From NCBI GenBank assembly GCA_001825675.1, contig MHYA01000173.1:1-32486 (forward strand): a stretch of 32,486 bases of DNA. The letters run 5' to 3'. Within the stretch, counting starts at the first letter, position 1. Every line of letters starts with the position of its first letter. This document shows positions 31,361-32,486 of this stretch, in pieces. The translations under genes and the position numbers were made by a program. Below the pieces are notes generated by a model, which was given only the letters and a program-made list of their open reading frames with translations, made no database searches and was not told the origin of the DNA. Origin of the DNA: Planctomycetes bacterium GWF2_42_9 (lineage in GTDB: Bacteria > Planctomycetota > Phycisphaerae > Sedimentisphaerales > UBA12454).

Positions 31361-32486
31361 ATGAAACAGACGGTAATCTTTGTTTTTATAGCATTCATAA
31401 TTTTTGGCAATTCTTTTGCGGGAACACAAGATTATGTCAAGGCGGGCGAATTCAAAAGAATTTACGATCCCTCATTCGGTGAAGACAGAAGATGGTATAT
31501 TAACGATCATTGCTTTATCCGCGACGCAAACGGCACTTGGCATATGTTCGGCATCACTCATCAGGAGCCGATGAACCCGCACGATGAAGATTATTTCGCA
31601 CACGCGACTTGCTCCACTCTTACAGGCGTATGGAAAAAAGAACCGTTTGCGATGAAGGTCGATCCAAACTTTGGCGAGATACATCTTTGGGCTCCGCACG
31701 TAATATATCACAACGGCCTTTATTATATGTATTATTGCGGCGGCAGCGACAAAGGTAGTACCAAATATCAAATCAATCTCGCGACTTCAAAAAATCTTTA
31801 CGACTGGACAAGAGTAAAAGAAAATCCGATGGTTGTCGATGGCTTCGATGCAAGAGACCCGTTTATTTACCGTATGAAAGACAAATGGGTGATGTACTAC
31901 ACTGCCAACAGTAAGCCAGAAGGCGGCAACCATGTAGTTTATGCAGTTACGAGCAAAGACCTTCTTCATTGGTCGGACAGAAAACTTGTTTACACAGACC
32001 CCGGCGTTGGAACTTGGGGTGGAAATACCGAATCGCCGCAGGTTATTCGCAGGGGCAAATATTATTATCTGTTCATCGGGCCGGGCGCAGCCTATACGCA
32101 AACAACCGTCTATCGCAGCACCGACCCATTCAACTGGGTATATGACGCAAATGTTCCTGTTCTCAAAACACATGCCGCTGAAATCGTTCGCGATATAGGC
32201 GGACAATGGTATATAAGCCATTGCGGCTGGGATCAGGGCGGAGTTTACCTTGCGCCATTAATTTGGAATGACGGCGTTGATGATAATGACACATCGCTTC
32301 CGCCCGGCGGCGAAGTCAAAAAGCTATCGCGTGCAACTTATATAGACAAAATGAAGGCAGGCTGGCTCGGTCAAATGGTTGGCGTAACATGGGGATTTCC
32401 CACCGAATTTAAATGGAATGGCAAGATAATACCTGACGCGAATGTGCCGGTATGGACTTCAAACATGTTTGATGGAGCTTTTTGGC
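31361..32486 (+). CDS. Secreted GH43/GH32-like beta-propeller fused to an ADP-ribosylglycohydrolase-like domain (runs off right edge)
   Basis: The frame is open to the window end, giving 375 residues of a longer protein. A signal peptide (residues 1-20, FGNSFA cleavage) directs export. Residues about 40-310 show the repeated strand pattern of a five-bladed propeller glycosidase: WYINDHCFIRDANGTWHMF, WAPHVIYHNGLYYMYYCG, then DARDPFIY and TESPQVIRRGKYYYLF. Asp49, Asp166 and Glu224 occupy the places of the nucleophile/base, transition-state Asp and acid of GH43/GH32 families. After a Pro/Gly linker, YIDKMKAGWLGQMVGVTWG (about 327-345) begins an ADP-ribosylglycohydrolase-like domain, comparable to the DKxxGxxxGxxxGDAxG opening. 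GAAGGGA eight bases before the ATG at 31361 favours it over the in-frame ATG at 31346. Substrate is probably a plant or algal glycan; the second domain's role is unknown. Confidence 0.82.
   Translation, partial: MKQTVIFVFIAFIIFGNSFAGTQDYVKAGEFKRIYDPSFGEDRRWYINDHCFIRDANGTWHMFGITHQEPMNPHDEDYFAHATCSTLTGVWKKEPFAMKVDPNFGEIHLWAPHVIYHNGLYYMYYCGGSDKGSTKYQINLATSKNLYDWTRVKENPMVVDGFDARDPFIYRMKDKWVMYYTANSKPEGGNHVVYAVTSKDLLHWSDRKLVYTDPGVGTWGGNTESPQVIRRGKYYYLFIGPGAAYTQTTVYRSTDPFNWVYDANVPVLKTHAAEIVRDIGGQWYISHCGWDQGGVYLAPLIWNDGVDDNDTSLPPGGEVKKLSRATYIDKMKAGWLGQMVGVTWGFPTEFKWNGKIIPDANVPVWTSNMFDGAFW

Follow-up and report, generated by a model that had tools for sequence, protein, structure and literature searches.

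Organization of the fusion gene

The window analyzed here, a stretch of 32,486 nucleotides from Planctomycetes bacterium GWF2_42_9, ends inside a gene that joins a propeller glycosidase of the GH43/GH32 superfamily to an ADP-ribosylglycohydrolase (ARH)-like domain behind a predicted signal peptide. We propose that the encoded fusion is an exported bifunctional debranching enzyme whose ARH-like domain would be a metal-dependent glycosidase, most likely a ribose-releasing one, and give this reading slightly less than an even chance. The ARH fold itself is known but stands in an unexpected setting: in a literature search of partial coverage the propeller-ARH pairing was found nowhere described, and no open paper was found that joins an ADP-ribosylglycohydrolase with GH43 or other glycoside hydrolase families or that deals with PF03747 in polysaccharide loci. 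Nor was any enzyme of the fusion's ARH branch found described in the literature searched.

The open reading frame starts with an ATG at position 31361 of the forward strand, has a Shine-Dalgarno-like AAGGGA upstream and is still open at the window end (32486), where a run of 19 N (contig 32487-32505) begins exactly. The contig (C173) continues to 59,927 bases within a 4.86-Mb draft genome. Read in frame through the 19 N, the gene spans contig 31361-33463 and encodes 701 amino acids, in which the signal peptide is followed by a five-bladed propeller of GH43/GH32 type and then by an almost complete PF03747 domain. Seven codons inside the ARH-like domain, including the first metal motif, are hidden by the gap; a gapless paralogue on contig C214 of the same genome (L005) reads QDDMYVE there, and the length of the gap matches this paralogue (FCQDDMYVEMTF).

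As the 19-N gap sits within the ARH-like domain, the fusion could be an artefact of scaffold assembly. However, the propeller and the N-terminus of the ARH-like domain are already joined before the gap, so that the fusion is independent of scaffolding, and the gap keeps both frame and length. Gap-free fusions in five other genomes finally rule out an artefact, to which we assign practically no probability.

Conservation and history of the fusion

A search for the fusion across genomes, as suggested with the original prediction, recovered these five full-length, gap-free proteins among 198 related genomes, all in other Sedimentisphaerales (G039, G057, G082, G090 and G094; loci L009, L010/L040, L011/L076, L012/L039 and L013/L042) and with 56-62% identity. 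A mixture-model tree of the ARH domains groups all six fusions in a single clade (bootstrap 97, SH-aLRT 90) and is most simply explained by one fusion event. A set of 392 genomes sampled from the phylum contained the fusion only in the window's own genome, but stand-alone relatives of the ARH domain turned up in further families and classes. A second, independent association is seen in Botrimarina colliarenosi (L054), where a propeller-GH172 gene is immediately preceded by an ARH gene belonging to another branch. Viral contigs searched with the ARH relative L005 gave no match.

The N-terminus of the fusion protein (residues 1-20, 31361..31420, forward strand; MKQTVIFVFIAFIIFGNSFA) has a positive start, a long hydrophobic core and a cleavage-like site between NSFA and G. 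All five fusions assessed have a comparable N-terminus, and in a crude scan 76 of the 79 members of the ARH branch showed a signal-peptide-like start, many of them with a lipobox. Judged from these N-termini, export is predicted to be the rule in this ARH subfamily, and location alone is therefore weak evidence on the substrate.

The propeller domain

The propeller covers residues 21-312 (31421..32296, forward strand). It matches PF04616 (Glyco_hydro_43) with 50.2 bits for the part in the window and 48.4 bits for the whole protein (residues 100-290), passing the cut-off of 32.2 only modestly. PF00251 is matched with 53 bits (cut-off 22.1) when the part in the window is taken alone. PF08244, the C-terminal beta-sandwich module of GH32, has no match in the 701-amino-acid protein, and the ARH-like domain follows the propeller directly. 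The first catalytic Asp (Asp49 in YINDH, 31505..31507), the second (Asp166 in ARDP, 31856..31858) and the catalytic acid Glu224 (TESP, 32030..32032), all on the forward strand and numbered D29, D146 and E204 in the alignment, are invariant in 44 homologues.

An AlphaFold2 model was built on the gap-free relative L039 (mean pLDDT 87.5, pTM 0.75). It consists of the propeller (~25-301), an all-helical domain (329-670) and, from ~725, a C-terminal beta-sandwich that is missing from the window protein. VIA-align superimposed the model propeller on a GH32 endo-levanase (Z 26.5), a GH159 enzyme (Z 25.9) and GH43 enzymes. A five-bladed propeller with an Asp, Asp, Glu trio is thus supported by Pfam, by residue invariance and by the structure of the model. 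The family is well conserved, with 50-60% identity across many phyla (L038-L094), and looks like an uncharacterized glycosidase family. GH172 (DUF2961) is fused to or near the propeller in 20 of 52 propeller loci from many phyla, and propeller relatives that carry no ARH domain are fused to it as well.

The ARH-like domain

Enzymes of the ARH fold are known for removing ADP-ribosylation. The ARH-like domain of the fusion starts at residue 334 (32360..32486, forward strand, continuing to contig 33220) and matches PF03747 (ADP_ribosyl_GH) with 87.8 bits (cut-off 26.2) over residues 334-620, that is, profile positions 2-286 of 287, so that a chance motif match as source of the similarity is ruled out. 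The original prediction had seen a signal peptide, the GH43/GH32-like trio Asp49, Asp166 and Glu224 and the first ARH-type motif in one protein. This combination is borne out, and beyond position 32486 the profile match runs almost to its end, with the metal-binding Asp residues of GQDSDC lying downstream. The ARH relationship escaped single-sequence searches of solved structures and was recovered by a profile search, which aligned Glu349 with the Glu of MJ1187. The helical domain of the L039 model superimposes on ARH3 with Z 30.0 and 2.8 A over 297 residues (VIA-align).

In ARH1 and ARH3 two Mg ions are surrounded by Glu25/41, Ser/Thr-Asp-Asp and Asp-x-Asp-Ser/Thr, the residues of the ARH3 site being E41, T76, D77, D78, D314, D316 and T317 (PMC9738213). 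Of the corresponding residues in the window protein, the Glu-flap glutamate (Glu349 in PTEF, 32405..32407, forward strand; E32 in the alignment) and the C-terminal Asp pair (GQDSDC), downstream of the gap, are invariant in 24 aligned domains. The first Asp pair falls within the gap; the gap-free relatives have it intact, as QDD. Both metal motifs have lost their Thr, in the place of which stand Gln (QDD) and Cys (DSDC). These changes are what a non-catalytic binding or structural module might show, but distant paralogues all keep the Glu-flap Glu and the C-terminal Asp pair, and nearly all of them the first Asp pair, and we consider a loss of catalysis very improbable.

The canonical PF03747 proteins aligned carry an NGxxMR motif that is absent from the fusion's ARH branch, the aligned members of which have an acidic, DYQIEAD-like stretch (HADDIDYQIEAD) at this site. 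Phe143, Ser148 and Tyr149 of ARH3 presumably adjoin the position of this motif. These three residues hold the adenine in ARH3, and placement of its substrate requires both metals and the cis 2'',3'' hydroxyls of the distal ribose (PMC7050489). The loss of NGxxMR fits a substrate other than ADP-ribose and supports, short of proof, a loss of ADP recognition in the branch. It also bears on the idea that the domain is a true (ADP-ribosyl)hydrolase or a scavenger of NAD or ADP-ribose, merely placed outside the cytoplasm. Fold and metal ligands are the same as in ARH3, and fusions of sister domains to nucleoside hydrolases would suit nucleotide salvage. However, the acidic stretch stands in for NGxxMR, and the domain is joined to a propeller glycosidase in a setting of mannanases, GH9 and GH172, which leaves this idea unlikely in our view.

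Stand-alone relatives and a possible link to ribose

In four genomes, stand-alone ARH sisters are fused to nucleoside hydrolase (IU_nuc_hydro) domains. In the genomes G132, G119 and G087 the ARH gene is accompanied by a RhaT/ureide-permease-like transporter and a ribokinase, and the kinases pass both curated ribokinase cut-offs (380-400 bits vs 341 and 360-379 vs 299.65). The same link is present in G051 and, with a more distant ARH, in G044. The permease-ribokinase pair occurs with a nucleoside hydrolase and no ARH in ten other loci, and the permease is likely a ribose transporter. For 60 ARH-centred loci (709 kb) 4 ribokinases above the cut-off were counted vs ~0.09 expected and 3 permeases vs ~0.03 expected, where related loci were treated as independent and expectations came from genome-wide counts and an approximate mean genome size. 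The link is confined to sister lineages and to a minority of loci. These gene associations suggest that the sister enzymes release ribose outside the cytoplasm.

Several further arrangements were seen around these genes. The operon of nucleoside hydrolase, ribokinase and RhaT/ureide-permease-like permease recurs in Sedimentisphaerales (L203, L204, L209-L214, L217 and L226), and that of the distant ARH, ribokinase and permease in G044 (L218) has a GH32 gene on either side. An LptE-FtsH-DsbD-endonuclease III cluster adjoins many stand-alone ARH genes (L101-L118); it was judged to be apparently conserved synteny and not a functional association. A stand-alone ARH gene for a predicted exported protein lies beside a DUF4434 protein gene in L005 and L220 (G007), followed by a GlcNAc-2-epimerase-like gene in L005 and with a DUF2961 gene near in L220. 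The window's own genome has a further PF03747 gene, from a different branch (L001, contig C37), flanked by genes for two repeat-rich proteins that, their fold judged by eye, resemble right-handed beta-helix enzymes.

Gene neighborhood of the fusions

Directly downstream of the window's fusion gene lies an open reading frame for 958 amino acids (contig C173 33485-36361; L007:5486-8362) with a GH5-type and a GH113 mannanase domain (GH113 317 bits, Pfam), the best PDB matches of which are endo-beta-1,4-mannanases; an overlapping SSF symporter gene follows. G082 and G090 encode the GH5-GH113 modules within the fusion polypeptide, which there reaches 1790-1818 amino acids. Near the other three fusions, which lack these mannanases, GH9 is encoded. 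No ribokinase and no RhaT/ureide-permease-like permease was found near the fusion at any fusion locus, and in the window's genome no kinase reaches the ribokinase cut-off and the permease is missing as well.

The mannanase setting would suit a mannose-directed activity and thus speaks against ribose. The ARH-like domain of the fusion clade could be a metal-dependent mannosidase of a beta-mannan operon, with the metal site gripping the cis-2,3-diol that mannose has too. Such a role would agree with the direct linkage to GH5 and GH113 mannanase domains, even within one polypeptide, and with fusions that have no ribose genes alongside. We nevertheless regard it as rather improbable, as three fusions stand beside GH9 and not mannanases, the linked sisters go together with ribose or nucleoside genes, and the literature searched yielded no ARH-fold member specific for a pyranose.

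GH172 adjoins the fusions at L010/L040, L011/L076 and L013/L042; it is not found beside the window's gene but on other contigs of the same genome. Since GH172 acts on alpha-D-arabinofuranosides and alpha-D-fructofuranosides (PMC10115798, PMC8605356) and is fused to or adjoins the propeller in many phyla, the ARH-like domain might, together with GH172, remove another furanose (D-arabinofuranose, L-arabinofuranose, galactofuranose or fructofuranose) from a decorated polysaccharide, and GH32 or GH127 genes near some of the linked loci would be in keeping with this. However, the ARH metal site selects a cis-2,3-diol (PMC7050489), which is missing from arabino- and galactofuranose. GH172 also goes with the propeller where no ARH domain exists, so that its presence may be a clue to the propeller and not to the ARH domain, and we likewise consider this alternative rather improbable.

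Proposed function

The debranching enzyme that we favor would be exported and act on carbohydrate outside the cytoplasm. Its ARH-like domain would hydrolyze ribofuranosyl (or similar cis-diol) side groups by a two-metal mechanism, and the propeller, as a GH43/GH32-superfamily glycosidase with a complete trio, would remove a second, probably furanosyl, side group. A beta-1,4-linked backbone would thereby be exposed to the mannanases encoded alongside (or to GH9), and the SSF symporter may import the products. The identity of the sugar is the weakest step. Ribosyl linkages are indicated by the sister lineages, so that the domain may have retained its ancestral preference for ribose and lost that for ADP; in the partially covered literature no paper was found linking ribofuranosidase and polysaccharide.

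The original prediction had argued from export that the second domain acts on a sugar linkage rather than on ADP-ribose. The sugar linkage is favored by the conserved fusion with its intact catalytic residues outside the gap, the polysaccharide operon and the lost NGxxMR; the argument from export is weak, export being predicted to be typical of the ARH subfamily, and a specificity for ribose may have been kept. More tentatively, and with somewhat lower confidence than in the debranching function, we suggest that the members of the exported ARH branch make up a new glycoside hydrolase family with a binuclear metal site (alpha-D-ribofuranosidases or similar) that serves carbon scavenging; the fusion clade would have recruited it, along with a propeller furanosidase, to remove side groups from a beta-1,4-linked polysaccharide. 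If this is true, a conserved exported branch with ties to ribokinase, nucleoside hydrolases and polysaccharidases would imply that many genes annotated as ADP-ribosylglycohydrolases encode sugar hydrolases, and the ARH fold would be a glycosidase fold that works by a two-metal mechanism. Sediment bacteria would then, it seems, harvest some glycan with ribosyl or similar side groups.

Comparison with known systems

With ARH3, ARH1 and DraG (PF03747) the fusion shares the all-alpha fold, as seen in the L039 model, the Glu flap, the C-terminal metal Asp pair and, in its gap-free relatives, the first Asp pair. Unlike these enzymes it is predicted to be exported, is joined to a glycosidase and has no NGxxMR; identity over the aligned structure is ~12%, and the fusion clade has QDD/DSDC in contrast to TDDT/DTDT. 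The propeller resembles those of GH43 and GH32 (also GH117, GH130 and GH159) in its five blades, the Asp-Asp-Glu trio and the match to PF04616 and, on the window part, PF00251, but forms a separate branch with ~10-20% identity to solved members. The C-terminal sandwich of GH32 was not found in the fusion protein, and in difference to GH43/GH32 the propeller family, widespread in many phyla, is often linked to GH172. The GH172 D-arabinofuranosidases and difructose dianhydride I synthase/hydrolase are different proteins that recur as fusion partner or neighbor of the propeller. In operons of nucleoside hydrolase, ribokinase and sugar permease, sister ARH domains replace or join the nucleoside hydrolase, whereas the fusion clade itself stands outside such operons.
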